A stretch of 37,014 nt of DNA from Gammaproteobacteria bacterium (GTDB lineage: Bacteria; Pseudomonadota; Gammaproteobacteria; DSM-19610). Position 1 is the first letter of the stretch; the number at the start of each line of letters is the position of its first letter. The DNA lies in the NCBI GenBank assembly GCA_011374975.1, contig DRNU01000230.1, forward strand, positions 1-37,014, in the 5' to 3' direction. A model generated the notes under the pieces. It did not search any database. It saw only the letters and a program-made list of their open reading frames with translations, and was not told the DNA's origin. Both the position numbers and the translations under genes were made by a program. This document shows, in pieces, positions 8,354-23,626 of this stretch.

Positions 8354-8356
8354 GGT

Positions 8357-9142: not shown

Positions 9143-9200
9143 CCATACTCAGGACTGTCGCCGCCCGGTAGCAGGCACTCAGACGCAAGGAGACTACACA

Positions 9201-9257: not shown

Positions 9258-9685
9258 CCGTGCATGGAACACCCGGCACCAGCCCGGGATGCGGTTCAGG
9301 CTCCCCCTGTGAAATCCCCACCGGCAACCTGATCCCGCTGCTGCATGAAATCCGCCACGCGCTGGAGCGCTGGCTGGACAGCGGTGAGGAACACGCCATC
9401 GACCTGCGCGGCATCCCCATGGCGCCCGGCGAGGAAGACCAGCTACTGGCCACACTCGGCGAAGGCGAACTGCATGCCGACCTGTCTCTCACCGGCAAAA
9501 GCGTGGTCATCGAAACCCGTTTTCCGGCCGTGTGGCTGGTCACCCACTACAACACCGATGAGCGGATCGTCGGGCGCTATATCGAAGTCTGCGAAATGCC
9601 CGCGATCCTGAAATCACAGACGGAGGACGCCAGGGCCGGTCTCGAATACCTCGGAAAACTGCTCAACGAAAACAACCTGCAATAG
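9254..9685 (+). CDS. HupH/HyaF C-terminal-domain protein (hydrogenase expression/formation)
   Basis: The 143-residue protein resembles the C-terminal conserved domain of HupH/HyaF proteins: LLHEIRHALERWLDSGE, AIDLRGIPMAPGEEDQLL, LGEGEL, ETRFPAVWLVTHYN and a closing IEVCEMPAIL segment. Full HupH/HyaF proteins are about twice this length, so this is a single-domain form. Such proteins assist maturation of the small subunit or its FeS clusters, consistent with the position immediately before the small-subunit gene. Start is by ATGA overlap with the 18-codon leader. The family call is from memory of the motif pattern. Confidence 0.8.
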   Translation: MTVHGTPGTSPGCGSGSPCEIPTGNLIPLLHEIRHALERWLDSGEEHAIDLRGIPMAPGEEDQLLATLGEGELHADLSLTGKSVVIETRFPAVWLVTHYNTDERIVGRYIEVCEMPAILKSQTEDARAGLEYLGKLLNENNLQ

Positions 9686-9704
9686 CGCGCGCGGAGGCAA
9701 CAGC

Positions 9705-10796
9705 ATGAAAAAAGACCAGACCATAGGCGAGGTACTCCGGGAGCGCGGGATTTCCCGGCGCAGTTTTCTGAAATTCTGCGCCAGTACCGCGTCGTTGATG
9801 GCGTTACCCCCCTCCATGATACCGGTCATCGCCGCGACCCTGGAAAAGGCGCGCCGGCCTTCGGTGATCTGGCTGTCCTTCCAGGAATGCACCGGCTGTA
9901 CCGAATCGATCACCCGCAGCGATTCATCGACGCTCGAAGACCTGATCTTCAATGTCATCTCTCTGGACTACCACCACACGCTGCAGGCCTGTGCCGGGCA
10001 TTTCGCCGAGCACATCCGTGAACAGGTCATCAAGGACAACGCGGGCAAGTACATCCTGATCGTGGACGGTTCCATACCGGTCAAGGATGGCGGCGTGTAT
10101 TCCACCATCGCCGGCATGAGCAATGAACAGATCCTGAAAGAAACCGCCGCGCACGCCGCAGCCATTGTCGCCGTCGGCACCTGCTCGGCCTATGGCGGTA
10201 TCCCGAAGGCAGACCCCAATCCCACCGGCGCGGTGTCGGTGTCCGACCTGATCAAGGACAAGCCCATCGTCAACGTGCCGGGCTGCCCGCCGATCCCCAA
10301 CGTGATTACCGGGGTCCTGGTGCAGTTCCTGACTTTCGGCCTGCCGGAACTCGATGCCCTCGGCCGTCCCAAAGCCTTTTACGGCCAGAGTATCCACGAC
10401 CGCTGCTACCGCCGGCCGTTTTATGACAAGGGCCTGTTTGCCGACTCCTTCGACGACGAAGGCGCCAGGAAAGGCTGGTGCCTGTACAAGCTCGGCTGCA
10501 AGGGCCCGACCACCTACAACGCCTGTGCCACCGAGAAATGGAACTTCGGCACCAGTTTCCCGATCCAGGCCGGCCATCCCTGCCTGGGCTGTTCCGAGCC
10601 TGACTTCTGGGACGCCGGCAGCTTCTACAGCGCCCTGTCGACACCCACCGAGAACATCGGCAAGACCGCGATCTACGCCACGGCCGGCGGGCTGCTGGCC
10701 GGTGCCGCCATCGGCGGTGTACTGCGCGCCCGCAAGCAGGCCGCCGTCAAGGCCCATCAACGCGTCACCATCGACGACCTGGATAAGGAGTCCTGA
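9705..10796 (+). CDS. hynS: [NiFe] hydrogenase small subunit, Isp-type group 1
   Basis: This is the electron-transfer subunit of a periplasm-facing uptake hydrogenase (363 residues). It has a twin-arginine signal (SRRSFLKF at 17-24) and proximal [4Fe-4S] ligands Cys62, Cys65, Cys160 and Cys194. Distal cluster ligands are His231, Cys234, Cys259 and Cys265, and medial [3Fe-4S] ligands are Cys274, Cys293 and Cys296. A C-terminal membrane anchor lies at about 322-341. The proximal site is CTGC with four cysteines, not the six-cysteine site of oxygen-tolerant enzymes, so a standard oxygen-sensitive type is expected. A GGAGG ribosome binding site precedes the ATG. The name follows Thiocapsa HynS. 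Confidence 0.95.
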   Translation: MKKDQTIGEVLRERGISRRSFLKFCASTASLMALPPSMIPVIAATLEKARRPSVIWLSFQECTGCTESITRSDSSTLEDLIFNVISLDYHHTLQACAGHFAEHIREQVIKDNAGKYILIVDGSIPVKDGGVYSTIAGMSNEQILKETAAHAAAIVAVGTCSAYGGIPKADPNPTGAVSVSDLIKDKPIVNVPGCPPIPNVITGVLVQFLTFGLPELDALGRPKAFYGQSIHDRCYRRPFYDKGLFADSFDDEGARKGWCLYKLGCKGPTTYNACATEKWNFGTSFPIQAGHPCLGCSEPDFWDAGSFYSALSTPTENIGKTAIYATAGGLLAGAAIGGVLRARKQAAVKAHQRVTIDDLDKES

Positions 10797-10798
10797 CC

Positions 10799-11458
10799 AT
10801 GACCGACGCCGAATTTCTGCTCTGGGTACGCGGGCCGGCTTTCAACATCGCACTGTTTATCATGCTGGCCGGCATCGTGGTGCGCTTCATGGAAATCCTG
10901 CTCATGGGCAGGAAAACCAACCTGGCCGAGGCGCGCGGTTCTGAAATGGCCGGCGGCCTGAATACCATCTGGCGCCGTACCCTGCCGGACGCGGACACTT
11001 TCCGCCGTTCCGGCTTTACCATCATCGCGGGCAACGTGTTCCACATCGGTCTGTTCGTGGTGATCTTCCTGTTCGTGCCGCATATCCTGGTGTTTGAACG
11101 TTTGTTTGGCGTCAGCTGGGCCGGCCTGCCTTCGAACATTGTGGACGCCACCACGGTAGTCACCATCGTTGCGCTGCTTGCGGTTCTGGTACACCGCGTC
11201 AAGGACCCGGTGCTGCGCATGTTGTCGAATTTTTCCGATTATCTGGCCTGGCTGGTGACGATTCTGCCGCTGATCACCGGCTGGCTGGCCTTCAACCGCG
11301 TCGGCCTGTCGGGCTCCACGCTGATCGGACTGCACATCCTCAGCGTTGAACTGCTGATGGTGCTGTTCCCGTTCACCAAGCTCAGCCATGCCTTCACCCT
11401 GGTACTGGCGCGCTGGTACAACGGCGCCATTGCCGGCTACAAGGGGGTGCAATCATGA
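10799..11458 (+). CDS. isp1: Isp1, b-type cytochrome membrane subunit of the hydrogenase
   Basis: This 219-residue integral membrane protein has about five hydrophobic helices and resembles the NarI/DsrM type of quinone-linked cytochrome b. Histidines in or near helices (His82 in FHIG, His132, His179, His197) are candidate heme ligands. In Isp-type hydrogenases Isp1 and Isp2 sit between the subunit genes and pass electrons between the small subunit and the quinone pool or a cytoplasmic acceptor. An AAGGAG ribosome binding site lies at the end of hynS, and the isp2 start overlaps its stop by four bases. Confidence 0.9.
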   Translation: MTDAEFLLWVRGPAFNIALFIMLAGIVVRFMEILLMGRKTNLAEARGSEMAGGLNTIWRRTLPDADTFRRSGFTIIAGNVFHIGLFVVIFLFVPHILVFERLFGVSWAGLPSNIVDATTVVTIVALLAVLVHRVKDPVLRMLSNFSDYLAWLVTILPLITGWLAFNRVGLSGSTLIGLHILSVELLMVLFPFTKLSHAFTLVLARWYNGAIAGYKGVQS

Positions 11459-12717
11459 GCGGCGCAGCCTTCGCACGCGGCTACAATGCCCTGAAAGAAC
11501 AGATCGACGCGCCGATAGCCGCCTTCCTCAGCAGCTGTGTGCATTGCGGCATGTGCGCCGAGGCCTGCCTGTTTTTCACCGAGACCGGCGACCCGCAATA
11601 CACGCCGATCCGCAAAGTAGAGCCTCTGCGCAGGGTGTGGGAACAGGAATACACCTTCTGGGGCAAACTCAGCAAGGCACTGGGCCTGTCAAAACCGCTG
11701 ACAGACCAGGACCTGACCGACTGGGAAACGCTGGTCTACGACAGTTGCACCCTGTGCGGGCGCTGCTCCATGGTCTGCCCGGTCGGCAACGATATCGCGT
11801 ATATGATCCGCAAGACCCGCGAAGGCATGGCCGCGGCGGGACACGCACCCGAGGGGCTGATCGGCGCCACGCAGCGCGCCATCACGATTGGCAGCCCGAT
11901 GGGTGTAAAACTGCCGGCCCTGCAGGCACAGATTCGTCACACGGAAAAGGAATTCGACCTCAAGATCCCGGTGGATGTCGAGGGCACCGACTACCTGTGC
12001 ATGTTGTCCTCCATGGAGATCATGAATTTCCCCGAATACATCGGCTCCATCGCCAGGATTTTCAAACAGGCCGATGTGTCCTGGACATTGTCTTCCGAGG
12101 CTTTCGAGGCCACCAACAGCGGCATCCAGATCGGTGTATCCGATATCGCCGCGCAACTGGTGCAGCGCATTGTCGATGCGGCGGAGAAACTGAAGGTCAA
12201 GGCGGTCATCAGCCCGGAGTGCGGCCATGCCTACATGGCGATACGCTGGGAAGGCCCGAACCTGGTCGGCAAGCGCTTCGGCTTCAAGGTGGTCCACATC
12301 CTGGAAGTACTGGACGAACTGCGTGCCCAGGGCCGGCTCAAGGTCGCGGACCGGGAAACCCGCAAACTGACCTACCACGACCCCTGCCAGATCGGCCGCC
12401 GCGGCGGTGTCCTCGAACAGCCGCGCAACCTGATCAACATGGTCGCGGAAAACTTCGTGGAGATGCCCGAGGCCGGCAAGATGAACTGGTGCTGCGGCGC
12501 CGGCGGCGGGGTCAGCACCAATGAACGCGCCGACGCTCTGCGCCTGAAAACCTTCGCGCGCAAAAAGTCCCAGCTGGATGCCGTCAACCCGGACGCCCTG
12601 GTCTCGGCGTGTTCGAACTGCCGCATCCACCTGGAAGAGGGGCTGGAGGAATACCATATGGATATTCCGTTGCTCAGCCTGACCGAAACCATCGCTGACC
12701 ACCTGAGCGACACATAA
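11455..12717 (+). CDS. isp2: Isp2, HdrD/DsrK-like iron-sulfur subunit
   Basis: This 420-residue protein is expected on the cytoplasmic face. It has two [4Fe-4S] ferredoxin motifs (Cys28/31/34/38 in CVHCGMCAEAC and Cys98/101/104/108 in CTLCGRCSMVC). One complete CCG domain follows, with DPC at its start, the pair in NWCCGAGGG and a closing CSNC. The first CCG repeat is degenerate: it has SPECGHAY but no CC pair. A single intact CCG unit is as in DsrK and known Isp2 proteins. It probably acts with Isp1 to connect the hydrogenase to quinone or a heterodisulfide/sulfur-type acceptor. Confidence 0.9.
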   Translation: MSGAAFARGYNALKEQIDAPIAAFLSSCVHCGMCAEACLFFTETGDPQYTPIRKVEPLRRVWEQEYTFWGKLSKALGLSKPLTDQDLTDWETLVYDSCTLCGRCSMVCPVGNDIAYMIRKTREGMAAAGHAPEGLIGATQRAITIGSPMGVKLPALQAQIRHTEKEFDLKIPVDVEGTDYLCMLSSMEIMNFPEYIGSIARIFKQADVSWTLSSEAFEATNSGIQIGVSDIAAQLVQRIVDAAEKLKVKAVISPECGHAYMAIRWEGPNLVGKRFGFKVVHILEVLDELRAQGRLKVADRETRKLTYHDPCQIGRRGGVLEQPRNLINMVAENFVEMPEAGKMNWCCGAGGGVSTNERADALRLKTFARKKSQLDAVNPDALVSACSNCRIHLEEGLEEYHMDIPLLSLTETIADHLSDT

Positions 12718-12733
12718 GCGGAAGCCGATTGCC

Positions 12734-13189
12734 ATGACAGCCATTACCAGCGAAACTGAATTCAGGCAGGCGATAAAAGGCCTGGAGCACGACCGGCAGC
12801 GTGTGCTGGCGGCGAAATTTATCACGCATGTACTCGACCTCTGCAGCGATAAACGCATTGCCGACGTGGTCAGGATCGCGGCTGACAGCAATGCCTCGGA
12901 TACCGAACTGGCCTCGGCGCTGCATACCGCACGCGAAGCCGCGGTCGACTGCCATACCCGTTGCGGGTCGGAAGCCGACTGGCAGGAGCACGCCGGCTAC
13001 TTCGTGGCACGCGCCGCCATCGCGGCGGTCACACCCGAATCACAACTGGCCGGGGCATCGGCAGCCCTGCAGGCAGCGATGAGCTGCCGCATGGCACAAA
13101 CCTGCCAGTCGATTGCAGCCGAGGAGGACCGGGCTGTGCAGGAGGCGCAGGATCAATACCGTATCCTGTCCGAATATCTCGCAAGCTAA
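12734..13189 (+). CDS. Unrecognised 151-residue protein inside the hydrogenase operon
   Basis: I do not recognise this protein. It is Ala-rich and apparently all-helical, with no signal peptide or membrane segment, and is therefore likely cytoplasmic. It has a few paired cysteines (CHTRC and CRMAQTC, roughly residues 76-80 and 117-123) that could bind a metal or form disulfides. It lies 16 bases after isp2 and 15 bases before the large-subunit gene, on the same strand and with the same base composition, so it is surely co-expressed with the hydrogenase. The classic Thiocapsa order runs isp2 directly into hynL; this is an extra gene. A chaperone, an assembly factor or a small partner of Isp2 are all possible. 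Confidence 0.8.
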   Translation: MTAITSETEFRQAIKGLEHDRQRVLAAKFITHVLDLCSDKRIADVVRIAADSNASDTELASALHTAREAAVDCHTRCGSEADWQEHAGYFVARAAIAAVTPESQLAGASAALQAAMSCRMAQTCQSIAAEEDRAVQEAQDQYRILSEYLAS

Positions 13190-13204
13190 CAGAGAGAGCG
13201 TCCC

Positions 13205-14926
13205 ATGAACGAGCGCGTTGTAGTCGACCCGATCACCCGCATTGAAGGCCACCTGCGTATCGAAGCACAGATGGATGGCAACCGGATTGCGCAGGCGTAT
13301 TCCTCCGGCACCATGGTGCGCGGCATCGAGATTATCCTGCGCGACCGCGACCCGCGCGACGCCTGGGCCTTCGCCCAGCGCATCTGCGGCGTGTGCACCC
13401 TGGTGCACGGCATCGCCTCGGTACGCGCGGTGGAAGACGCGCTGGACTACCCGATACCGCCCAATGCCCAGCTGATCCGCAACCTGATGATCGGTGCACA
13501 GTACGTACACGATCACGTCATGCACTTCTACCACCTGCATGCGCTGGACTGGGTCGATGTGGTATCCGCACTGGGCGCGGACCCGAAAGCCACCTCGGAC
13601 CTGGCACAGAGCCTGAGCAACTACCCCAAGTCATCGCCCGGCTATTTCTCGGACATGCAGAAAAAGCTGAAGACTTTTGTCGAATCAGGCCAGCTGGGTA
13701 TTTTCGCCAACGGCTACTGGGGCCACCCCGCCTACAAACTGCCGCCGGAAGCCAACCTGATGGCGGTCGCCCACTACCTGGAAGCCCTGGCCTGGCAACG
13801 CGACGTGGCGCGCCTGCACACCATCTTCGGCGGCAAGAACCCGCACCCCAACTTCGTGGTGGGCGGCGTGCCCTGCCCCATCGACCTGAATTCCGATTCG
13901 GCCCTGAACTCGGCTCAATTTGCCGAGGTACAGAACATCATCAAGAAAATGCAGTCCTTCGTCGACCAGGTCTACGTACCGGATACCCTGGCCATCGCCG
14001 GGTTCTACAAGGACTGGGCAGCACGCGGCGAAGGCATCGGCAATTTCCTGACCTACGGCGACTTCCCCGAAAAGGGCATGAACGACCCCTCCAGCCTGCT
14101 GATCCCGCCCGGTGTCATCCTCAACCGGGACCTTTCCACCATCCATGAAATCGACATGAACTCGCCGGAACACATCAAGGAGTTCATCTCGCATTCCTGG
14201 TATGACTACAGCGGCGGCAAGGACCAGGGCCTGCACCCCTACGAGGGTGAAACCGAGCTGAACTACACCGGGCCGCAACCGCCCTACCGGCACCTCGACG
14301 TGGATCAATCCTACTCCTGGCTGAAATCACCGCGCTGGAAAGGCAAGGCCATGGAAGTCGGCCCGCTGGCGCGCGTGCTGATGCTGTATGCCAGCGGTCA
14401 TGAACAGACCAGAGAACTGGTCAACATGACCCTGAGCAAACTCGATGTACCGGTTACGGCACTGTTCTCCACCCTCGGGCGCACCGCCGCGCGCACCCTG
14501 GAGACCAAGATTATCGCCGACAACATGCAGGTCTGGTACGACAATCTGATTGCCAATATCAAGGGCGGCGATACCCGCACCTTCAACGAAACACTCTGGG
14601 AGCCATCGTCCTGGCCCAGGCAGGCCAAGGGCGTCGGCTTCATGGAAGCCCCGCGCGGCGGGCTCGCGCACTGGATCGTGATCGAGAACGAAAAGATCGC
14701 CAATTACCAGGCCGTGGTACCCAGCACCTGGAATGCCGGCCCGCGGGACAGTGAGGGACAGCCCGGCCCCTATGAAGCGGCACTGGAGGACAACCACGAA
14801 ATGTATGACCCGAAGCAGCCCATCGAGATACTGCGCACCATCCACAGTTTCGACCCCTGCATCGCCTGCGCGGTGCACGTGACAGACCCGGATGGCGAAG
14901 AACTGGTCAAGGTCAAGGTCTGTTGA
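13205..14926 (+). CDS. hynL: [NiFe] hydrogenase large (catalytic) subunit
   Basis: This is the catalytic subunit (573 residues as precursor) for H2 oxidation. The four nickel-ligating cysteines are visible in RICGVC (Cys61, Cys64) and DPCIACAVH (Cys552, Cys555). The protein continues 15 residues beyond His558 (VTDPDGEELVKVKVC), the tail expected to be removed by the protease at 8666-9142. The N terminus VVDPITRIEGHLRIE is the family signature. It has no signal of its own and should be co-exported with the Tat-signalled small subunit. An AGAGAGAG ribosome binding site precedes the ATG. Separation from hynS by isp1 and isp2 defines the Isp-type arrangement. Confidence 0.96.
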   Translation: MNERVVVDPITRIEGHLRIEAQMDGNRIAQAYSSGTMVRGIEIILRDRDPRDAWAFAQRICGVCTLVHGIASVRAVEDALDYPIPPNAQLIRNLMIGAQYVHDHVMHFYHLHALDWVDVVSALGADPKATSDLAQSLSNYPKSSPGYFSDMQKKLKTFVESGQLGIFANGYWGHPAYKLPPEANLMAVAHYLEALAWQRDVARLHTIFGGKNPHPNFVVGGVPCPIDLNSDSALNSAQFAEVQNIIKKMQSFVDQVYVPDTLAIAGFYKDWAARGEGIGNFLTYGDFPEKGMNDPSSLLIPPGVILNRDLSTIHEIDMNSPEHIKEFISHSWYDYSGGKDQGLHPYEGETELNYTGPQPPYRHLDVDQSYSWLKSPRWKGKAMEVGPLARVLMLYASGHEQTRELVNMTLSKLDVPVTALFSTLGRTAARTLETKIIADNMQVWYDNLIANIKGGDTRTFNETLWEPSSWPRQAKGVGFMEAPRGGLAHWIVIENEKIANYQAVVPSTWNAGPRDSEGQPGPYEAALEDNHEMYDPKQPIEILRTIHSFDPCIACAVHVTDPDGEELVKVKVC

Positions 14927-14957
14927 CCCGGATACACAGGGAGATAGGGAGCCCGTT

Positions 14958-15164
14958 ATGACAGCAAGCAAACTGACCGTCCTGATTTCCGCACTGGCGT
15001 TTATCCCGGCGGCTTACGCCCACCCCGGCCACACGCACAGCCACAACGTCCTGGAGCGGGTGTTACACGCGGTACAGACCGAATGGCTCGCCCCGGTGCT
15101 GGTGGTGATCCTGATTGGCGTTGCCGGTTACCTGTACCTGAAATACTCCAGCAACGACCGGTAG
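14958..15164 (+). CDS. Small His-rich membrane protein at the end of the hydrogenase operon
   Basis: This 68-residue protein has a probable signal peptide (ending near AAYA), then HPGHTHSHN, then a second hydrophobic segment (LAPVLVVILIGVAGYLYL) and a short basic end. After signal cleavage it would be a single-pass protein with a periplasmic His cluster, which suggests metal (nickel?) binding. It starts 31 bases after the hynL stop and is the last gene before a palindromic hairpin. I chose the ATG at 14958 for its GGAG-type ribosome binding site and the signal peptide. I know no specific family, so function is unassigned. Confidence 0.75.
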   Translation: MTASKLTVLISALAFIPAAYAHPGHTHSHNVLERVLHAVQTEWLAPVLVVILIGVAGYLYLKYSSNDR

Positions 15165-15207: not shown

Positions 15208-15870
15208 TTACAGGGTCTTGCGCGGCTTTTTCAGCTGGTCCAGCGAGACAGTGTGCTCACCCGGCGCCTGCAACGGGTCGGTCTCTTCAACAACAAAGAT
15301 ACGGTGCCCGTTAAGCATGGCCGAGACATCCGATGCGGTTCCTTTTGCATCGTGCAGCGCCACGGTGAAAATATGCAGGACGGCAAAAACCAGGATAAAC
15401 GGTGCCCAGAAATCATGCACCGAGGGCAGGTAAAACGTCCCCATCACCGGGTAGGCTTCCATTAGCAACCCGGTGAGTGTCTGCACCACGAGTACGAGCA
15501 GAACGAAAAGATAGACCGGCGCCCACAACGGGTTGTGCGCATACCATTTCGGTTGTGGCGACTTGCCCATTGTGGCGTAGAAGACCAGGGTCTGGCCCAT
15601 CTTCTGCAAGTCATCGCGCTGTGGTACCAGCGCCTTCCAGTGGGCCGGCCCCTTTCCGGTCAACAACAACCACACCCGGAGCAGCAACCCGAGTATCAGC
15701 CCGATACCCGCCAGACGGTGATAGTCACTGGCCGCGTTGGCAACACCGGGGGCCAGTTTCACCAGCCAGCCGGTTGCGATCAATACGCCGACAGACAACG
15801 CGAGCAGCCAGTGCGCAAGCCGCATCCGGCCACTCCATACCAATGTGCGTTTAATATGGCTACCGCCCAT
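15208..15870 (-). CDS. HupC-like / cytochrome b561-type membrane cytochrome b
   Basis: This is a 220-residue diheme-type cytochrome b of the Ni-hydrogenase/b561 fold with about four transmembrane helices. Candidate heme histidines occur in LAHWLLAL, DYHRLAG, SVHDFW and VLHIFTVALH. The family moves electrons between periplasmic redox partners and the quinone pool. It is the last gene of a minus-strand set that includes a c-heme protein and lies convergent to the hydrogenase, so its partner may be either the hydrogenase or that c-heme protein. I chose the ATG at 15870, which overlaps the upstream DUF3149 gene by 11 bases; upstream in-frame codons belong to that gene's other frame. Confidence 0.88.
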   Translation of the reverse strand: MGGSHIKRTLVWSGRMRLAHWLLALSVGVLIATGWLVKLAPGVANAASDYHRLAGIGLILGLLLRVWLLLTGKGPAHWKALVPQRDDLQKMGQTLVFYATMGKSPQPKWYAHNPLWAPVYLFVLLVLVVQTLTGLLMEAYPVMGTFYLPSVHDFWAPFILVFAVLHIFTVALHDAKGTASDVSAMLNGHRIFVVEETDPLQAPGEHTVSLDQLKKPRKTL

Positions 15871-16018
15871 GCGCGCCCTGTTCAGTTTTAAAGTGCCTGT
15901 TGCAGGCCCTGCGGTACATGGTAACAAAAAACACCCCCATGCCGACCATGAACAGGATGACGAACAGGGACAGGATGCCTGTCCAGCTACCGAGCAGCAG
16001 CTCAAGGGCCTGGTTCAT
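15860..16018 (-). CDS. DUF3149-type micro membrane protein
   Basis: This 52-residue product starts MNQALELLLGSWTGILSLFV, continues through one hydrophobic helix (VILFMVGMGVFFVTMY) and ends in a basic, polar tail. The pattern (short amphipathic start, LLSLFVI, GM.VFFV, charged tail) matches the small DUF3149 family as I remember it. A clear ribosome binding site (AGAGAGGTG) precedes the ATG. Its stop overlaps the cytochrome b start by 11 bases, implying translational coupling. Function is unknown; it may be an assembly or stability subunit for the cytochrome. Confidence 0.75.
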   Translation of the reverse strand: MNQALELLLGSWTGILSLFVILFMVGMGVFFVTMYRRACNRHFKTEQGAHGR

Positions 16019-16090
16019 TGCAATCACCTCTCTTTGTCGATCAAACTGCAGGCCGGAGCCACACCCGGCCCCGACCTGCCCGGAACACGC

Positions 16091-16327
16091 TTACCAGCCG
16101 AGTTCACCGACATCTTCATCATCGTCGGCGACTTCAACCGCTGACACCGCCGACACGGTCACGACAGACGGCTCGGCAGCCTGCTGGTCACTGGTTTCGA
16201 TCACTTCGCAGTTGCTGTTGAAGTCGTCGAAAGTCCAGGGGATGTAGCCCGATTCAGCAGCTATGTCCGCCGCATTCACCGTGGACATGCTCACCAGCGT
16301 AATCACTATTGCCATTGCTTTCTTCAT
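16091..16327 (-). CDS. Small secreted acidic protein, function unknown
   Basis: This 78-residue product has a signal peptide (MKKAMAIVITLVSMSTVNAA), then SGYIPWTFDDFNSNCEV with one cysteine, and an acidic tail (DDDEDVGELGW). I recognise no family. It lies between the DUF3365 and DUF3149 genes on the same strand with short gaps, so it is probably part of the same transcript. I chose the ATG rather than the preceding GTG because GAGGTGAG sits at proper spacing. The single mature cysteine and acidic tail could serve metal or cytochrome docking, but this is speculative. Confidence 0.65.
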   Translation of the reverse strand: MKKAMAIVITLVSMSTVNAADIAAESGYIPWTFDDFNSNCEVIETSDQQAAEPSVVTVSAVSAVEVADDDEDVGELGW

Positions 16328-16379
16328 CACTCACCTCACTAGTCAGAAACCGGTATCAAGCCGGCCAGTCATGGAAAAT

Positions 16380-16985
16380 TCAGTTATCGAGCGGCTGCTT
16401 GATGCTGACCGCGCCGCGCAGGTCGCCGGGCTTGTAACCAACGGCCCGGTCGTGCGGGTACAGGGCATTCAGCTCATTGCGCACCGGCCCGGCGATCTGT
16501 TCCGCGCTGCCGTGGCAGGCCAGGCACTGCGGCGCCACACCGATTGCCTTCATGTAGCGCAATGAGCGGCCTGCGGGTTCTTCAACGACTTCGAAATAGC
16601 TCATTGTTTTATACGCCTCACCCTGCGCCGCGCGCTTTTCAAATTCGCGCAACACATCCTGTTCCCAGGCATCGGGCATACCCAGCATCGGGTTACGTAC
16701 CCGCGTGCCGACCCGGGTTACCTTCCAGCCTTTTTCCAGCGAAATCCGGTTGGCGATCTCCGGCGCCTTGTCGCGGCAGACCTTCATCGCCGCGGTCGGC
16801 CCGCCGGCCTTCATTTCCTGCTTCATGGTGCCGCCGAGCTGCTTGATGAAATCACCCGTCACCGCTTTGGCCGCAGCGACACGCGCCTGTATATCCGCAT
16901 CATCGCCGGCGGCCCGCGCCGCCGGTGCTGCAACGGCCGCGCTCAATGCTGCCACTACCAGTATTTTTGAAATATTCATTTTCAT
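16380..16985 (-). CDS. Periplasmic DUF3365 (Tll0287-like) c-type heme protein
   Basis: This 201-residue protein has a signal peptide (to about residue 26) and one c-heme attachment motif CLACH (Cys154, Cys157, His158) near the C terminus. The fold pattern is of the DUF3365/Tll0287 family: AMKVCRDKAPEIAN, RVRNPMLGMPDAWE, then APQCLACHG and GDLRGAVSI. The cyanobacterial member Tll0287 was reported, as I recall, to have an unusual Cys axial ligand; Cys70 here (in MKVC) is the likely equivalent. This is consistent with redox sensing or sulfur chemistry. It is the second gene after a sigma-54 promoter. Confidence 0.85.
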   Translation of the reverse strand: MKMNISKILVVAALSAAVAAPAARAAGDDADIQARVAAAKAVTGDFIKQLGGTMKQEMKAGGPTAAMKVCRDKAPEIANRISLEKGWKVTRVGTRVRNPMLGMPDAWEQDVLREFEKRAAQGEAYKTMSYFEVVEEPAGRSLRYMKAIGVAPQCLACHGSAEQIAGPVRNELNALYPHDRAVGYKPGDLRGAVSIKQPLDN

Positions 16986-17024: not shown

Positions 17025-17705
17025 TTAAATCCCGCAGTGCCGGTTGGCCGCCAGGCTGTCATTCTTCCAGGTCCTGCCATACATGGCTTCCAGCTGCTTG
17101 CGTTCTATAAATTGCCCGCGTGTAGTTCCGGGTTGCAGGTCCGCATTCATCGCGCGCTCCTGGCCGATGCTGCTGATGCGCCACCCGTTCCTGATCCGCC
17201 CCGGGTAAACCAGCGTTTCGTCCGGCAGTGCAAACAGGCGCTGCTCAACACTGTCGAACAACTGACCCGCATTCGCATCGTCACGCAGGCAGGGGCCTGT
17301 TGCCCCGGCCAGCAGCGTATGGCCGGTAAAGACACGGTCACGCCAGCGGATACTCAACGAACACATGCTGTGCCCCGGCGTCGCCAGCACGCTGATACAT
17401 TCCTCACCAACAAAGATGCTGTCGCCGGCGTCGACATGCATGTCCACGCAGCTGATATCGGCCTCACTGTGGGTCACCAGCCGCGCCCCGGTATCTGTGC
17501 GCAGTACCGACGCTGCGCTCAGGTGCGACTCGTGGGCGTGCGTCTCGATGACATACACCAGCCGCAGGTCGAGGCGGTTCATGACCTCGATATAGTCAGG
17601 CTCGGCCAGCAGGTTCGGATCCAGCAGCGCGGCATAACGCGTCACCGGGTCCGCCAGCAAATAGCTGATCTCGTCATCGCTGGTACAGAACTGGCGGAAA
17701 ATCAT
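17025..17705 (-). CDS. Persulfide-dioxygenase-like MBL-fold protein with altered metal ligands
   Basis: The 226-residue protein aligns by eye with ETHE1/persulfide dioxygenases over its whole length (LLDPNLLAEPDYIEVMNRLDLRLVY, ending NRHCGI). The expected HxHxDH is HAHESH here (His56, His58, Ser60, His61). The first two iron ligands of ETHE1 (His79 and His135) are kept as His56 and His112. The third ligand, Asp154 in ETHE1 (FTGD), is His129 here (FTGH), confirmed as codon CAT. The late His of YPAHDY is Arg170, and the CGRTDF segment is lost. It could be an inactive homologue, a sensor, or an enzyme with a three-His iron site like thiol dioxygenases. A sigma-54 promoter lies 43-68 bases upstream. 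Confidence 0.85.
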   Translation of the reverse strand: MIFRQFCTSDDEISYLLADPVTRYAALLDPNLLAEPDYIEVMNRLDLRLVYVIETHAHESHLSAASVLRTDTGARLVTHSEADISCVDMHVDAGDSIFVGEECISVLATPGHSMCSLSIRWRDRVFTGHTLLAGATGPCLRDDANAGQLFDSVEQRLFALPDETLVYPGRIRNGWRISSIGQERAMNADLQPGTTRGQFIERKQLEAMYGRTWKNDSLAANRHCGI

Positions 17706-17757
17706 GGCACCCTGCCTCGCAACCGGCCGACCCTGTCGGCACTACATGACAGTACTA

Positions 17758-17775
17758 TGGCAAGCTCTGTGCCAG
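17758..17775 (-). promoter_or_regulatory. Sigma-54 (-24/-12) promoter of the persulfide-dioxygenase-like operon
   Basis: The minus strand reads CTGGCACAGAGCTTGCCA, matching YTGGCAC-N5-TTGC with the invariant GG (17773-17772) and GC (17761-17760) at exact 12-base spacing. Transcription should start near 17748, giving a 43-base leader before the ATG at 17705. The adjacent divergent gene encodes a sigma-54 activator, which strengthens the call. Confidence 0.85.
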
Positions 17776-17838
17776 GCGCTGTGAGCCTTGTGTTATCTGC
17801 ATATTACCAACTGTTTTATAAAGTATTTTATTCATTAA

Positions 17839-17888
17839 CCAGGACTGTGAGGCAGACCGGAACAGACACCTGGCGCAGGCCAGGACTG
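17839..17888. promoter_or_regulatory. Candidate upstream activator site: CCAGGACTG direct repeats
   Basis: CCAGGACTG occurs at 17839-17847 and again at 17880-17888, 41 bases apart (about four helical turns). Between and overlapping them is CCTGG-N6-CCAGG (17869-17884). The sites are 90-140 bases upstream of the predicted sigma-54 start, where activator sites normally sit. Binding by the neighbouring regulator is inferred. Confidence 0.35.
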
Positions 17889-17919
17889 CCATTTCAGTCA
17901 CTCCCGTGCTAACCTGTAG

Positions 17920-17933
17920 TGCCATTATTGGCA
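17920..17933. promoter_or_regulatory. Inverted repeat TGCCA-TTAT-TGGCA before the activator gene
   Basis: A 5-bp perfect inverted repeat with a 4-base spacer ends 15 bases before the regulator's ATG. It could be an operator or just overlap the translation start region. The rest of 17706-17948 holds an AT-rich patch near 17815-17835 that may be a sigma-70 promoter for the regulator, without clear boxes. Confidence 0.25.
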
Positions 17934-17948
17934 TTCACGGGAACCCCC

Positions 17949-19277
17949 ATGAGCAAACCGCTGCGTTTCAGCGAACACAGCCAGACCGAAGTCACCGGCG
18001 TACTCGATGCGCTCGGCGCCCCGGCGGTGGCCCTCACACCGGATTACCGCATCCTGGCCGCCAACCAGGCCTACCGGGATACCTACGGCGACGGCAAACC
18101 GCTGCACGACCGGCACTGCTACGAGGTGTCGCACCACTACGTCGTGCCCTGTGACCAGGCCGGCGAAAGCTGCCCGCTGGCCGACTGCCTGGCCTCCGGC
18201 CGCAAGCAGCGTGTGCTGCACCTGCACCACACGCCGCGCGGCGAGGAACACGTCGATGTCGAAACACACCCGGTCAGGAACGATGACGGGGAAATCAGTT
18301 ATGTCATCGAGATCATGCGCGAGACGCGCACCGCCAGCAGCCGGGCGGAAGCACACGGCATGGTCGGCCGGTCACGCGCCTTCAACCGTATGCTGGAACT
18401 CGTCAACCGCGTCGCCCCGGCTGAAACAGCCGCGCTGTTACAGGGTGAGTCCGGCACCGGCAAGGAACTGGTGGCGCGGGCCATACACGACAACAGCCCG
18501 CGCAGCGACAGGCCGTTCGTCGTCGTCGAGTGTTCGGGGCTGACGGAGTCGCTGTTCGAAAGCGAGTTATTCGGACATGAGCGTGGCGCGTTCACCGGCG
18601 CCCACGCTAAAAAGATCGGCCTGGTGGAAGCGGCCGAAGGCGGCACGCTGTTCCTCGACGAGGTCGGTGATGTGCCCCTGAGCCTGCAGGTCAAGCTGCT
18701 GCGCCTGCTGGAGTCCGGCACCTACCGGCGCGTCGGCAGCGTGGTGCCGCGCAAGGCGGATTTCCGGCTGGTAACCGCCACCCACCGCGACCTGCAGGCG
18801 ATGGTCGATGCAGGCAGTTTCCGCCGCGACCTGTTCTACCGCATCAGTACCTTCCCCATCGCACTGCCCGCGCTCAAGGACCGTGCGGAGGATCTCCCGC
18901 TGCTGATCGAATCCCTGCTGTCACGCCTGTCGCCGGGACAGGTTTACACGGTATCCCCGGCGGCACTCGCCTGCCTGCAACGTTACCGCTTCCCCGGCAA
19001 TATCCGCGAGCTGCGCAATATACTCGAGCGTGCCATGCTGCTGACCGATGACGAAGAGATCCTGCCCGCGCACCTGCCTGCCGAAGCCTGTGATGCGGAC
19101 GACCGCCACCGGCAACTGCCGGCCGGGGATGAAATCCTGCCACTCAAAGAACTGGAACGGCGTTACCTGATACAGGTCCTCGCACGCTTCCCGGGCGACC
19201 GCGACAGCCTGGCGGAGAAGCTGGGCATCAGCAAGCGCACCCTGTTCAGGAAATTGCAGGAACTGAAAGCCGGTTAA
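17949..19277 (+). CDS. FisR-like sigma-54-dependent transcriptional activator (sulfane-sulfur sensor)
   Basis: This 442-residue enhancer-binding protein has an N-terminal PAS-like sensor domain, an AAA+ domain and a Fis-type helix-turn-helix. The AAA+ domain shows Walker A GESGTGKE at 166-173, GAFTGA at 213-218 for sigma-54 contact, and Walker [10 protein letters not shown] at 231-239; the helix-turn-helix is [16 protein letters not shown]. The sensor domain has Cys57, Cys68 and Cys75, plus Cys80. The first three have the same 11- and 7-residue spacing as Cys53, Cys64 and Cys71 of Cupriavidus FisR. FisR is reported to sense sulfane sulfur and to activate sqr and pdo. The divergent sigma-54 promoter before a PDO-like gene fits this role. 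Start at ATG 17949; upstream codons are not conserved. Confidence 0.9.
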
Positions 19278-19310: not shown

Positions 19311-22300
19311 TCAATCCGTGCTCAGCAGTTTATCCATCCGGCTACGCATCAGCGCGTAATACAGCACCGGGATCACCACCAGCGTCAGTACTGTCGATAC
19401 CAGCAGACCGAAGATCAACGCGATGGCCAGGCCACGGAAGATCGGGTCGTCGAGGATAAACAGCGCACCGAGGATGGCCGCCAGGCCGGTGAGGATAATC
19501 GGCTTGGCACGAATCGCACCGGCACGTATCACCGCCTCTTCGAAAGCAACACCGCTCCTGACTTCCTCGTTGATGAAGTCCACCAGCAGGATGGAGTTGC
19601 GCACGATAATACCGGCCAGGGCGATCATGCCGATCATCGAGGTGGCCGTAAACTGGGCGCCCAGCAGCGCATGCCCCGGCATGACGCCGATAATGGTCAG
19701 CGGGATCGGCGCCATGATGACCAGCGGTACCAGGTAGGAACGGAACTGCGCCACCACCAGCAGGTAGATCAGGATGAGTCCCACCGAGTAGGCAATTCCC
19801 ATGTCGCGGAAAGTCTCGTAGGTAATCTGCCATTCACCGTCCCACTTGAGGCTGTAGCGGTAGGGATTGGCAGGTTGTTCTATCAGGTGCTGATCGACAG
19901 CCTCCCCGTTGACAGCAATATCGTCCTCGATGGCCGCATACAGGTCGGCCATGCCGTACAACGGGCTGTCCAGCTCACCGGCCATATCGCCGGTCACGAA
20001 CACCAGCGGCAGATGATCCTTGCGGTAGATGGCATTCTCGATCGTGGACAGTTCCAGCGTCACCAGTTCCGACAGTGCAACCAGGGCACCGTCATTGCCG
20101 CGCACGCGCAGTGTCAGTACACGTTCCAGGTCGGCCTTCTCCGCCACCGGCAGTTCCATGCGCACGGCTATGGGGTAGCGTGCGCGGGCATTGCGCAGGT
20201 AGCTGACATCCTCGCCGTCCAGCGCCGTGGCCAGCGCGTTCACCACGGTAGCCTGGTCCACGCCAAGTTGTGCCGCCAGACTGCGGTCGATACTCACGAT
20301 CCAGCGCTCCGCCGGGGCTTCCACACTGTCGTCGATATCGACAATATCGGCGGTCTGGTGGAACACCTGCTTCACCCGGCGCGCGAGCTCGATCTGGCCT
20401 TCATAGTCCGGGCCGTAGATCTCCGCCACCAGCGGCGACAGCACCGGCGGCCCGGGCGGCACCTCGACCACTTTCACCACCGCATTGAAACGTTTGCCGA
20501 TGGCCACCAGCGGTTCACGCACGCTGCGCGCAATGTCGTGACTCTTGCGCTCGCGTTGCGACTTGTCGACCAGGTTGACCTGGATATCACCGACATTGGG
20601 ACCACTGCGCAGGTAGTACTGGCGCACCAGCCCGTTGAAGTTGATCGGTGCGGCGGTACCGGCATAGATCTGGTAATTGGCCACCTCCGGCACCGCGGCG
20701 AGGTAGTCCGCCAGTTCGGTCAGCATGCGGTTGGTCTGTTCCAGCGCAATGCCTTCCGGCATGTCGACCACCACCTGGAACTCCGACTTGTTGTCGAACG
20801 GCAGCATCTTCAGCACCACCAGTTTCACCCCGGCCAGGCCGGTGGAGAGCAGGATCAGCACCAGTACCGAGGCCAGCATCAGGTAACGTCTGCGCTGTCC
20901 TTTCACATCACCCAGGAAAGGCGCCAGCACACGCCGGAACAGCGCCAGCAGGCGCGAGTCGTCCGCGCTTTCCGCATGTCCGGCATGCGCCTCGGCACGC
21001 AACAGCTTGAGCGACATCCACGGCGTGATCACCAGCGCCACGGCGAGAGAAATCAGCATGCCCAGGCTGGCATTGATCGGGATAGGACTCATGTACGGGC
21101 CCATCAGGCCGGTCACGAACGCCATCGGCAACAGGGCCGCGATGACGGTAAAGGTGGCCAGGATGGTCGGCCCGCCCACCTCGTCGACCGCGACCGGTAT
21201 CGCCTGCACCAGGTTCAGTTTGCCCATCTGCATATGGCGGTGAATGTTCTCGACCACTACTACTGCATCATCGACCAGGATGCCGATCGAGAATATCAGC
21301 GCAAACAGCGAGACGCGGTTGAGCGTGAAACCCCAGGCCCAGGAGGCAAACAGGGTGATGGCCAGAGTAATCACCACCGCGGCACCGACAATGATCGCTT
21401 CACGCCAGCCGAGGCTGAAGATCACCAGTATCACCACGGAAGCGGTGGCGAAAATCAGTTTCTTGATCAGCGTCTGCGCTTTCTGGTCGGCCGTCACGCC
21501 GTAGTTGCGCGTGACCGTGACGTTCACCCCCTCGGGAATGAAGATGCCCTGCAGCGCGTCGAGCCGGTCGACGATCTGGTCGGCGATACCGACGGCATTG
21601 GTGCCGGGCTGCTTGGCGATGGCCAGCGTCACCGCCGGGTGCTCGCCTTTCGTGGTATCCGCCTGCCCGGCCACGCCCGAACCGAACCAGACATACTGTT
21701 CAGGCTGCTCCGGCCCACGGTGAATATCGGCCACGTCGCGCAGGTAGACAGGCTTGCCTTCGTTCAGCCCGACCACCAGGCCGGCGAGATCATCGGCGTG
21801 CTGGAACAGCTCCCCCGCCTTGACCAGGACGGCGCGGTTGTCGGCCACCAGTTCACCCACATCGCTGGACTGGTTGGCCTGCCGCAAGGCCGTGCGCAGG
21901 TCTTCCAGCGCCAGGCCGTAACCGGCCAGCCGTTGTGCATCGAGCAGCACATGCACCACTGGTGCCGGGCCGCCCACGGTATAGATATCGCGGGTACCGG
22001 GCACCCGTTTGAGTTCTGTCTCCAGGGTATGGGCAACGTGCTTGAGCTGCGCGGCGCCACGCTCCATGTCCTCGGTCCACAGTGTCAGGGTGACAATGGG
22101 CACGTCGTCGATGCCCATCGGCTTGACCAGCGGCCGGCCCACGCCGAGGTTGGTCGGCAACCAGTCCTCGTTGGAATACAGCGCGTTGTACAGGCGCACA
22201 ATGGCCTCGGTGCGCTCCTCGCCGACATTGAACTCCACGGTCAGGATCGACTGGCCGGGGCGCGACATGGAATAGATATGTTTGACGCCCTCGATCTCGG

Positions 22301-22535
22301 ACAGCACCTGCTCGGCCGAACTGGTCACCAGGTTTTCGACCTCGCGCGCCGATGCCCCCGGGAAGGGAATGAACACGTTGGCGAACGTGACGTCGATCTG
22401 CGGTTCTTCCTCACGCGGCGTCACCGCAATGGCGAACATGCCCAGCAACAGGCCCAGCAGGGCCAGCAGTGGCGTGATCTCGGTCTGCAGGAAGCGCCTG
22501 GCGACCGAACCTGAAAACCCCAGCTGAACACTCAT
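19311..22535 (-). CDS. RND-family efflux transporter permease (AcrB-like)
   Basis: This 1074-residue inner-membrane proton-driven pump has the usual RND layout: TM1 near residues 20-40, a large periplasmic loop, a block of six helices around 340-510 including the proton-relay motif GILVDDAVVVVENIHRH, a second periplasmic loop, and a final helix block ending near 1060. The sequence near GPPVLSPLVAEIYGP and TPREEEPQIDVTFANVF is like the AcrB/AcrD/AcrF branch without obvious heavy-metal signatures. Substrate is unknown. It overlaps the adaptor gene by four bases. No outer-membrane TolC partner is in the window. Confidence 0.92.
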   Translation of the reverse strand: MSVQLGFSGSVARRFLQTEITPLLALLGLLLGMFAIAVTPREEEPQIDVTFANVFIPFPGASAREVENLVTSSAEQVLSEIEGVKHIYSMSRPGQSILTVEFNVGEERTEAIVRLYNALYSNEDWLPTNLGVGRPLVKPMGIDDVPIVTLTLWTEDMERGAAQLKHVAHTLETELKRVPGTRDIYTVGGPAPVVHVLLDAQRLAGYGLALEDLRTALRQANQSSDVGELVADNRAVLVKAGELFQHADDLAGLVVGLNEGKPVYLRDVADIHRGPEQPEQYVWFGSGVAGQADTTKGEHPAVTLAIAKQPGTNAVGIADQIVDRLDALQGIFIPEGVNVTVTRNYGVTADQKAQTLIKKLIFATASVVILVIFSLGWREAIIVGAAVVITLAITLFASWAWGFTLNRVSLFALIFSIGILVDDAVVVVENIHRHMQMGKLNLVQAIPVAVDEVGGPTILATFTVIAALLPMAFVTGLMGPYMSPIPINASLGMLISLAVALVITPWMSLKLLRAEAHAGHAESADDSRLLALFRRVLAPFLGDVKGQRRRYLMLASVLVLILLSTGLAGVKLVVLKMLPFDNKSEFQVVVDMPEGIALEQTNRMLTELADYLAAVPEVANYQIYAGTAAPINFNGLVRQYYLRSGPNVGDIQVNLVDKSQRERKSHDIARSVREPLVAIGKRFNAVVKVVEVPPGPPVLSPLVAEIYGPDYEGQIELARRVKQVFHQTADIVDIDDSVEAPAERWIVSIDRSLAAQLGVDQATVVNALATALDGEDVSYLRNARARYPIAVRMELPVAEKADLERVLTLRVRGNDGALVALSELVTLELSTIENAIYRKDHLPLVFVTGDMAGELDSPLYGMADLYAAIEDDIAVNGEAVDQHLIEQPANPYRYSLKWDGEWQITYETFRDMGIAYSVGLILIYLLVVAQFRSYLVPLVIMAPIPLTIIGVMPGHALLGAQFTATSMIGMIALAGIIVRNSILLVDFINEEVRSGVAFEEAVIRAGAIRAKPIILTGLAAILGALFILDDPIFRGLAIALIFGLLVSTVLTLVVIPVLYYALMRSRMDKLLSTD

Positions 22536-23626
22536 GACGGCGGTTGTGTATCCTGGCGCTTGAGCGCGATACCGGCGGCAACCGGGTCCAGCGCCACCTG
22601 TTCACCCTCTTCGAGACCGGCCAGCACCACGCGAAAACCACCCGGCGCTTCACGGCCGATGCGTAACTGACGGAAGTGCACCCGGCCATCTTCGGCAACC
22701 ACGTAGACACCGGTCACTTCGCTGCGGTGCACCACGGCAGACGCGGGAATCAGCAGTGTGCGTTCCCGGCCCACCACGAACGCGGTCTTGACCAGCATGC
22801 CGGGGTACATACCGTGCTGGCCGTCAGGCAACTGCACGCGCACGGTAAAGGTGTGGCTGGCCGGATCTGCGTAGGGGAAGATGGTAATGTCCGTGCTTTC
22901 CAGCCACTGGTCGCTGTCCGGCACCCGCACCCGGGCCTGGGCGCTGGCACGGATACGTTGCACATAGTGCGCCGGCACCGGCACCTGCACGCGCAGTTTT
23001 TCCAGTGACAGGCCGGTGCCGAGCGGCGTGCCGACCTGGGCACGTTCACCGATCTCGACCGAGCGCTCGATAAGCACACCCGCATAGGGCGCCCGCACCA
23101 CGGTGTATTCCCACTGCTCGCGCGCCTCCTTGAGCTCGGCCTGCGCCAGCTCCAGTTGCGCGCGCGCCGACTTCAGGTTCGCCTCGGATTTCTCCAGCTG
23201 CGATTTACTGACCGCATTGTCCTTTATCAGGCGCCGGTTGCGCTGGTAGGCGGACTCCGCTTCCACCAGCTGGGCTCGCGCCTGTGCCTCGCTGGCAATG
23301 GCCTTGTCCAGCCCCGCTTTCTGGCGGGTATCGTCGAAACGCACAATAATGGCGCCTTTCGGCACGTAATCGTTGACGTCATAGGGCAGCTCGATGATTT
23401 CACCGGAAGTCTGGGCGGTAATGGTGGAGCGGAACACCGCCTCGACCACGCCGTCGAAACGCTGCTCATCTGCCAGCATCTGGAAGTGGGTGGCGCTGGT
23501 CTCCAGCGTTGCCGCGGCAAGCAACAGGGGCGACAGCAGCAACCAGCCGGCAAAACCTGCGGCTACCTTTTGTACGGGAGTTCTGAAACACCGGAAGACA
23601 CGCGACACCTGACACCTCGCTTGCAC
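22532..23626 (-). CDS. RND efflux periplasmic adaptor (membrane fusion protein)
   Basis: This protein of up to 364 residues bridges the pump and an outer-membrane channel. It has an N-terminal signal/anchor (about 23-40), a lipoyl-like half (SGEIIELPYDVNDYVPKGA), a helical hairpin with Ala/Glu/Lys-rich coiled coil (about 115-165), the second lipoyl half (YTVVRAPYAGVLIERSVEIGE) and beta-barrel domains. The start is uncertain: a GTG at 23626, or a GTG at 23608 that has a better-placed GAGG. Its stop overlaps the pump start (ATGA), so the two are co-translated. Confidence 0.9.
   Translation of the reverse strand: MQARCQVSRVFRCFRTPVQKVAAGFAGWLLLSPLLLAAATLETSATHFQMLADEQRFDGVVEAVFRSTITAQTSGEIIELPYDVNDYVPKGAIIVRFDDTRQKAGLDKAIASEAQARAQLVEAESAYQRNRRLIKDNAVSKSQLEKSEANLKSARAQLELAQAELKEAREQWEYTVVRAPYAGVLIERSVEIGERAQVGTPLGTGLSLEKLRVQVPVPAHYVQRIRASAQARVRVPDSDQWLESTDITIFPYADPASHTFTVRVQLPDGQHGMYPGMLVKTAFVVGRERTLLIPASAVVHRSEVTGVYVVAEDGRVHFRQLRIGREAPGGFRVVLAGLEEGEQVALDPVAAGIALKRQDTQPPS

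Follow-up and report, generated by a model that had tools for sequence, protein, structure and literature searches.

Among the closest described systems is that of FisR in Cupriavidus (Li et al. 2017), in which a sigma-54 activator carries three sensing cysteines (PMC9774590). A. baumannii also has a FisR-controlled, sulfide-induced pdo/sqr operon, but its FisR reportedly has no regulatory cysteines, and a sulfide-induced cydAB lies at another locus (PMC7315123).

PDO homologues in sulfur oxidizers get counted as sulfur dioxygenases (SDOs). The type I PDO/ETHE1 proteins (MxPDO, PDB:4ysb; AcPDO; hETHE1) have an iron site of two histidines and one carboxylate (His57, His113, and Asp130 in AcPDO). 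Activity was not detectable for AcPDO variants at Asp61 and His171, and was 0.4% for Arg139 and 1.5% for Asp141 (PMC6060420). In A. caldus, the homologue A5904_1112 keeps one histidine per metal site and had no SDO activity (PMC5584763).

DUF3365 heme domains that are fused to signalling modules bind nitric oxide (NO). Stand-alone DUF3365 proteins with an axial-type cysteine are described as binding NO weakly and serving in redox reactions (PMC12889525). Our literature search found no link between DUF3365 and FisR or sulfide.

A FisR orthologue opposite a candidate sigma-54 promoter

We analyzed a 37,014-nt stretch of DNA, which we call the window, from Gammaproteobacteria bacterium (DSM-19610; GCA_011374975.1, contig DRNU01000230.1, forward strand). 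Its features of interest are:

15208-15870, minus strand: cytochrome b561 (Ni_hydr_CYTB; Pfam E 3.4e-22)
15860-16027, minus strand: DUF3149 protein (Pfam E 8.7e-12)
16091-16330, minus strand: 79-aa acidic protein with a signal-peptide-like start (by eye) and a conserved PWTFDDFNSNCEVIET core
16380-16985, minus strand: stand-alone DUF3365/Tll0287 c-heme (sCache_heme) protein (Pfam E 2.5e-23)
17025-17705, minus strand: PDO/ETHE1-fold protein with an altered metal and glutathione site (alignments, structure model, dN/dS)
17759-17774, minus strand: putative -24/-12 sigma-54 element TGGCACAGAGCTTGCC, about 54 bp before the ATG of the PDO-like gene, with one mismatch to TGGCACNNNNNTTGCW
17949-19277, plus strand: FisR-type sigma-54-dependent activator with a PAS_4 sensor, AAA+ domain, and Fis HTH (Pfam, orthology, tree)

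An original prediction, made from the DNA alone, described a FisR-like sensor facing a sigma-54 promoter for a PDO homologue and heme proteins. Orthology, promoter conservation, and Pfam matches bear this out overall. Pfam finds PAS_4, Sigma54_activat, and a Fis-type HTH in the activator. By sequence comparison it is a FisR orthologue: it is the reciprocal best hit of a FisR from C. metallidurans CH34 (52-53% identity over 97%), which faces a pdo gene; the next paralogue scores 100 bits lower; and a tree also supports the assignment. (NCBIfam gave no match above its cut-off for this protein or for the PDO-like protein.) The sensor has Cys57, Cys68, and Cys75 with spacings of 11 and 7, as predicted, along with a fourth cysteine, Cys80. 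The triad aligns in all 63 FisR-like rows, including C. metallidurans. (These rows come from 64 loci; one was dropped because no frame was recovered.) We take the sensing cysteines of Cupriavidus FisR to be 53, 64, and 71 (C. pinatubonensis numbering). Although every FisR-like row has this spacing, three paralogues in the same genome (G000) share it, so it is not proof of FisR, and we rejected identification by spacing alone.

The predicted near-perfect -24/-12 element opposite the activator is also found, with 0 mismatches, in both congeners (G006 and G001). Such a match is not rare in the window (3 found versus 2.14 expected; 31 of 100 shuffles had as many), so the case for a promoter rests on position and conservation. 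Elements with at most one mismatch occur in 16 of 30 divergent regions of FisR loci, in 0 regions on the FisR strand, and in 18 of 900 random windows of 600 bp. Conservation supports this as the promoter of the window operon, and FisR would be its regulator. Inspection by eye of the seven intergenic regions listed revealed no common inverted repeat that might be a FisR site.

Pfam also matches the DUF3365, DUF3149, and cytochrome b proteins that were predicted. The DUF3365 protein has a CLACH heme motif (CxxCH), an axial-type cysteine, no signalling domain, and, judged by eye, a signal-peptide-like start. It thus resembles the stand-alone redox class (Tll0287; PDB:5b82; PMC12889525), but unlike those proteins it is linked to FisR. 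The acidic protein has no match in Pfam or NCBIfam, and its secretion was judged from the protein start only. Its core, DUF3149, and cytochrome b561 (at 71%) are also in G006. Both congeners have a rhodanese gene. A hydrogenase cluster converges on the window operon, but G006 has different neighbours, so we consider this incidental.

The prediction that no sqr is visible is correct for the operon and the window, but another contig of the same genome encodes an SQR homologue (72% to a FisR-linked SQR). Within 500 bp upstream of that gene there is no close match to the -24/-12 element (the best has 5 mismatches). Opposite a typical FisR lie sqr and a pdo with its site intact. The window differs in this, which concerns the output and not the identity of the regulator.

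A PDO-fold protein with an altered active site

The PDO-like protein is predicted to have a metallo-beta-lactamase fold of the PDO type, and its structure model (pLDDT 93) resembles 4ysb (TM 0.95, rmsd 1.3 Å). The original prediction noted altered ligands, and the alignment confirms them: D60S, D129H, H170R, and R138P are replaced, while His56, His58, His61, His112, Cys86, and Cys224 are kept. (Cys86 and Cys224 correspond to Cys87 and Cys224 of AcPDO.) In AcPDO terms, the iron ligand Asp130 has become His129. The second-shell network of Asp61, His62, and His171 reads Ser60, His61, and Arg170, and the glutathione-site residues Arg139, Asp141, and Tyr173 read Pro138, Leu140, and Arg172. There is also an added cysteine, Cys115, by the vacated iron site.

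The change of the iron-ligand aspartate to histidine, the two second-shell replacements, and the loss of the glutathione-site arginine are found in all three Thiogranum-like genomes with the gene. By comparison, the metal site is intact in 108 of 108 other relatives in our first sample. To judge by these residues, the normal metal and glutathione chemistry of PDO is lost in the window protein. In the trio, however, His56, His112, and His129 could still hold a metal, so some catalysis may persist.

Variable cargo and a recurring PDO-fold family at FisR loci

The divergent side carries SQR, cydAB, DUF3365, globin, or a PDO-fold gene at 25 of 30 close FisR loci, and none of these markers at the other five. 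SQR is the commonest neighbour (12 loci). DUF3365 lies beside FisR at 8 loci, versus 0.07 expected, often with sqr. The window operon had been taken for a different output. That is true in part: DUF3365 is a recurrent neighbour of FisR, often beside sqr, which makes the operon one version of a broader FisR regulon. The marker genes hardly occur at 27 FisR-like loci of another class, taken from a phylum draw, so these proteins have other outputs. (Three loci of that class were seen opposite an oxidoreductase operon, which is presumably a molybdopterin oxidoreductase.)

We call a PDO-fold protein eroded if one or more of its three iron ligands have been replaced; the family is further defined by a place divergently beside FisR and behind a -24/-12 element. 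The window protein has all of these features. We found 23 eroded proteins. All except one adjoin FisR divergently, and 21 of those 22 genes have the element with 0-1 mismatches. (The exception, in G776, adjoins a CysB-like regulator.) Seventeen are from an order that we take to be Acidithiobacillales, which are bioleaching bacteria; here the branch is conserved even though an ordinary iron site is impossible. In this order the eroded gene mostly precedes cydAB, which places FisR directly opposite cydAB, and twice it is alone: in G786 and G784, a convergent gene is directly behind, leaving the PDO-fold gene as the sole gene of the unit facing FisR. Outside this order, DUF3365-SQR follows the eroded gene, or, in the window, DUF3365 and cytochrome b561. 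FisR is constant and the genes behind vary. Not every FisR-linked PDO is eroded, however: the PDOs of G274 and those beside FisR in C. metallidurans, G273, and G368 keep the site, and all three ligands are kept in G163, where cydAB separates the PDO-fold gene from FisR by about 3.5 kb.

Different lineages have lost different iron ligands. Cys115 is present in 21 of the 23 eroded proteins (not in G107 or G045) and in a relative from G010. It is absent from all 141 canonical rows in three alignments (of 107, 31, and 3 rows, with some loci in more than one). In a tree built without the active-site columns, the eroded proteins and two others form one side of a branch with support of 97/91. The 23 did not group as a single strict clade: two changes are needed, and one origin was recovered in 8% of the bootstrap trees. 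(In an earlier tree, built from fewer rows, long branches came together.)

A5904_1112 of A. caldus is likewise a PDO homologue without most metal residues (PMC5584763). Of the 17 eroded proteins from Acidithiobacillales, 9 share its pattern of 243 amino acids with two histidines kept. It is probably one of the eroded loci found here, which would explain its inactivity. In contrast to these loci, its gene is reported to lie apart from sulfur genes, and the part of that paper used here describes no link to FisR or cydAB (PMC5584763).

Possible roles of the PDO-fold protein

We think that this circuit responds to sulfane sulfur and that the first protein it makes is a PDO put to a new use, probably as a buffer or binding partner for persulfide; we put the probability of this at about 50%. 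By analogy to Cupriavidus FisR, rising polysulfide or persulfide would cross-link cysteines 57, 68, and 75. FisR would then turn on the operon by activating sigma-54 polymerase at the -24/-12 element. The PDO-fold product most likely serves to bind or buffer persulfide instead of oxidizing it, with Cys115, where the iron site used to be, as a possible point of attachment, and it may give FisR feedback or share in its sensing. We favor such a role because its place beside FisR is constant while the genes behind it are variable or absent. The DUF3365 His/Cys c-heme protein and cytochrome b561 may carry electrons between the periplasm and the quinone pool under sulfide load; sqr or cydAB would fill this place in related loci. 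This would give stand-alone DUF3365 proteins a biological context, sulfide respiration.

The pairing of FisR with an iron-less PDO recurs in several sulfur-oxidizing lineages, which suggests an unrecognized sensor partner. The family is a candidate pseudoenzyme in persulfide signalling. Tentatively, it might be a dedicated, non-catalytic partner that takes up persulfide (perhaps on Cys115) and tunes FisR, with cydAB, sqr, DUF3365 and cytochrome b, or nothing behind it according to the respiratory chain being protected. The Thiogranum-like site would be at an intermediate stage and might form a metal centre of three histidines.

Three-histidine metal sites occur in thiol dioxygenases of the cupin fold. 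The window protein could be a working enzyme with such a site (His56, His112, His129) and a substrate other than GSSH. Five histidines (56, 58, 61, 112, and 129), Cys115, Cys139, and Arg170 are identical in the three Thiogranum-like proteins, the fold is predicted to be intact, and G791 has a form with Asp129 changed to Glu and the histidine ligands kept. We still consider this unlikely: Asp60, His170, and the arginine of GRTDF are gone, and the matching AcPDO variants have little or no activity (PMC6060420). Also, a role common to the family cannot need iron, because other FisR-adjoining members lack two or three ligands. It is doubtful, too, that this is an ordinary detoxification operon with a slow PDO and accessory genes. 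FisR, the rhodanese genes of the congeners, and the SQR homologue elsewhere in the genome would fit, as would A. caldus SDO1, which is active despite missing the glutathione-site tyrosine; but SDO1 keeps both metal sites, which the window protein does not, and A5904_1112, with most metal residues lost, is inactive (PMC5584763).

If the eroded genes were decaying relics of a lost pdo, retained as first in the operon, then ligand losses that differ by lineage would be expected, and several of these genomes do keep other PDO-fold genes. But dN/dS is 0.08-0.18 among the Thiogranum-like trio, which indicates purifying selection on these sequences. For the Acidithiobacillales pairs that were scored it is 0.08-0.23, or 0.32-0.43 when G789 is one of the two. 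None of the 23 genes has a stop codon inside the match, and two are retained with no gene behind them. Decay is very unlikely. As for the signal, NO stress would be in keeping with cydAB and globin too, and the regulator might sense something other than sulfane sulfur, with the redox genes belonging to another response. Signalling-fused DUF3365 domains do bind NO, but the window's stand-alone protein belongs to the class of weak binders (PMC12889525). With SQR the commonest gene at FisR, we find a response such as this highly improbable.

A FisR orthologue and its sigma-54 promoter

The locus is on contig 230 of a genome that is 88.8% complete.

17949-19277: FisR-type activator (PAS_4, AAA+ sigma-54 and Fis HTH domains; Cys57, Cys68, Cys75, Cys80)
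About 54 bp ahead of the divergent operon's first ATG: -24/-12 element, TGGCACAGAGCTTGCC
Divergent operon, in order: PDO-fold (persulfide dioxygenase-like) protein (17025-17705, minus strand), DUF3365, 79-aa acidic protein, DUF3149, cytochrome b561
Hydrogenase set: small subunit, 9705; membrane subunit, 10799; DsrK/HdrD-like Fe-S protein, 11455; large subunit, 13205

The regulator is a FisR orthologue. Its best match is a protein from C. metallidurans CH34 (52% over 97%; tblastn, plasmid records), and the reverse search returned the window gene on top (447 bits; runner-up, 347). In a quick tree, 42 FisR rows split from five other sigma-54 activators of the window genome (91 SH-aLRT). Both results bear out the original identification as FisR-like. 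In CH34, the divergent neighbour of fisR encodes a PDO whose HxHxDH site is intact.

The original prediction also pointed to the spacing of three sensor cysteines. When the sensor domain was aligned to FisR proteins, all three were present in 63/63 FisR-like rows (from 64 loci, one of which yielded no frame). The spacing is real, but three paralogues in the same genome carry it too, so little can be read into the conserved triad. (One FisR paralogue with this spacing, in locus L152 (G000:C64, 1800-5097), adjoins a cytochrome c and a flavoprotein resembling flavocytochrome c sulfide dehydrogenase; these names are by eye and from a weak NCBIfam match.) The original prediction places the sensing cysteines of Cupriavidus FisR at residues 53, 64, and 71. 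According to a review, this protein senses by joining three conserved cysteines through disulfide and tetrasulfide links (PMC9774590). The A. baumannii FisR is said to lack these regulatory cysteines (PMC7315123).

The predicted sigma-54 promoter opposite the regulator was upheld by its conserved position in two congeners (G006 and G001) and by enrichment across 30 FisR loci. In the congeners, the element has 0 mismatches and its distance to fisR is nearly unchanged. Across the 30 loci, it occurs with at most one mismatch in 16 divergent regions and 0 FisR-strand regions, versus 18 of 900 random 600-bp windows. (Across the window, matches at one mismatch are not rare: 3 observed vs. 2.14 expected.) The conservation of the promoter and the anatomy of the operon are established by computation.

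Adjoining the 3' end of fisR, on the opposite strand, are genes for an RND-type efflux pump and a membrane fusion protein (19311-23626; by eye). On the other side, hyp genes and the [NiFe]-hydrogenase set (3559-15164) converge on the FisR operon; they are absent beside fisR in G006. We presume that the hydrogenase is Isp-type. Two ORFs in this region (12734-13189 and 14892-15164) have no Pfam match.

Genes that face FisR in relatives

The 30 FisR loci come from 28 genomes, including the window's, among 369 of the class (E up to 1e-115), plus the two congeners. The divergent side contains SQR in 12 loci, a PDO-fold gene in 10, DUF3365 in 8, and cydAB in 7; 25/30 loci carry one or more of these genes or a globin there. 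There was no marker gene on the divergent side in G086, G102, G323, G152, or G197, where the contig piece is short in some. The search for conserved linkage showed that DUF3365 recurs beside FisR: from 40 DUF3365 matches in the 30 genomes, 0.07 genomes would be expected to have one within 3 kb of FisR, versus 8 loci, or about 6 independent cases as the window genome and its congeners (the trio) count together. Because FisR orthologues of the class recurrently face marker genes, including DUF3365, the window operon is a variant of this class's FisR regulon, to which DUF3365 recurrently belongs.

In a second sample of 33 FisR-like loci, drawn from the phylum (29/398 genomes), marker genes were present in 3/6 same-class loci and in nearly none of 27 loci from another class. 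In that other class, the operon facing some FisR-like genes (L278, L284, L292) encodes, as judged by eye, a molybdopterin oxidoreductase, a ferredoxin, and an NrfD-like protein. In three FisR-linked cydAB operons (L188, L191, L145), a short ORF of about 63-72 aa, presumably CydP-like, precedes cydA.

All 11 aligned FisR- or PDO-linked DUF3365 proteins have the axial Cys, and 10/11 have CxxCH. (A FisR-linked DUF3365 in G223, L192, 2472-3032, has CLVYY instead; the heme attachment motif is gone and an axial-type Cys is retained.) Where DUF3365 stands alone and has an axial Cys, a redox role has been reported instead of NO sensing (PMC12889525). DUF3365 and cytochrome b561 may carry electrons, and sulfane sulfur would induce the operon via FisR.

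The PDO-fold protein of the window

The predicted structure (mean pLDDT 93) has a TM score of 0.95 to MxPDO (4ysb), from an alignment of mostly true PDOs that biases it toward this fold. The ligands are altered, as originally proposed. At the iron site, H56 and H112 are retained and Asp129 is replaced by His; in the second shell, Asp60 is Ser and His170 is Arg. These changes are identical in the trio. In the glutathione site of the three proteins, Arg138 became Pro, Pro, and Ser, and Asp140 became Leu, Gln, and Arg. In a first set of 112 loci (32 from a genome search and the best 80 among the matches listed), none of the seven metal and second-shell residues is replaced in 108 non-trio loci; among these, the one from G010 lost the glutathione-site Arg and Asp. 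In AcPDO (numbered one higher), activity was undetectable for D61A, H62A, and H171A, and was 0.4% for R139A and 1.5% for D141A (PMC6060420). The equivalents of AcPDO C87 and C224 are retained in the trio. The gene's dN/dS in the trio is 0.08-0.18, within the range of DUF3365 and FisR. Because site residues are replaced, the AcPDO mutants are (near-)inactive, and dN/dS is low, the protein is constrained and probably not an ordinary PDO. The genome encodes an SQR homologue and a PDO-like protein with intact HxHxDH (L209) elsewhere, so detoxification need not depend on the FisR operon.

Eroded PDO-fold proteins beside FisR

We call a PDO-fold protein eroded if at least one of its three iron ligands is replaced, and canonical if the metal site is intact. 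G107, G297, and G045 have FisR-adjacent PDO-fold genes that lost different ligands (G045 retains none). A profile (A1) from six eroded proteins matched 117 of 339 class genomes; four genomes with such genes ranked first, but three of the six are from the trio, which favours the profile's own rows. Among 35 of the matched loci, the 31 outside the top four genomes are all canonical. In the order of G297, taken as Acidithiobacillales, 27/31 genomes have matches (E up to 1e-50, including canonical copies), and 20 of the matches listed comprise 17 eroded and 3 canonical genes.

Of these 17, 16 face FisR. (The other, in G776, L377, 7016-8850, adjoins a CysB-like LysR regulator, named from the start of its sequence.) Behind the eroded gene is cydAB in 14/16 loci; this linkage calls for caution because one Acidithiobacillus genome reportedly has seven cydAB copies (PMC4109375). 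In A. baumannii, the sulfide-induced cydAB is listed at a locus separate from the FisR operon (PMC7315123). In G786 (L364, 8053-8811) and G784 (L365, 414-1172), the PDO-fold gene alone faces FisR, without cydAB, and is directly followed by a convergent gene that is thiC-like by its letters. In total, 22/23 eroded genes are beside FisR, with a -24/-12 element at 0-1 mismatches in 21/22 and at 2 in the remaining one. G163 is a half-case: its PDO-fold gene is near FisR behind cydAB and keeps the iron ligands, and its aligned sequence has a gap at D60-H61.

Orthology, site loss, selection, and positional constancy are established by computation. The genes that follow the eroded protein vary by lineage or are absent, whereas FisR stays constant, so the eroded protein may be FisR's partner. 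It might also bind persulfide. A candidate for accepting sulfur in the vacated iron site is Cys115, three residues past His112: it is present in 21/23 eroded proteins (absent in G107 and G045) and in the G010 relative, and in 0/141 canonical rows over three alignments (107, 31, and 3, with some loci repeated). C86 and C224 are retained in the trio and G107 and not in the 17 eroded proteins of G297's order.

In a tree with active-site columns removed, the 23 eroded proteins, G163, and G010 are separated by a 97/91 branch from 28 canonical rows, and the trio and G107 group at 96/89. The 23 alone require two changes, with a single origin in 8% of bootstrap trees; some branches are long. Purifying selection also acts on the eroded genes of G297's order (dN/dS 0.08-0.23 among scorable pairs; 0.32-0.43 for pairs with G789).

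The literature searched, which covers subscription journals thinly, contained no description of the FisR/eroded-PDO pairing. A. caldus A5904_1112 (243 aa) is described as having a single histidine left per metal site, no SDO activity across pH 3 to 10, and no co-localization with sulfur genes (PMC5584763). By that description, its residue pattern is the same as in 9/17 eroded proteins of G297's order, where only H56 and H61 are kept. In G010, from the window's genus, the PDO-fold gene (L155, 7148-8475) directly precedes DUF3365; metal residues are intact, the GRTDF motif is lost, and Cys115 is present. A Crp-like regulator is nearby (by eye), with no FisR within the piece.
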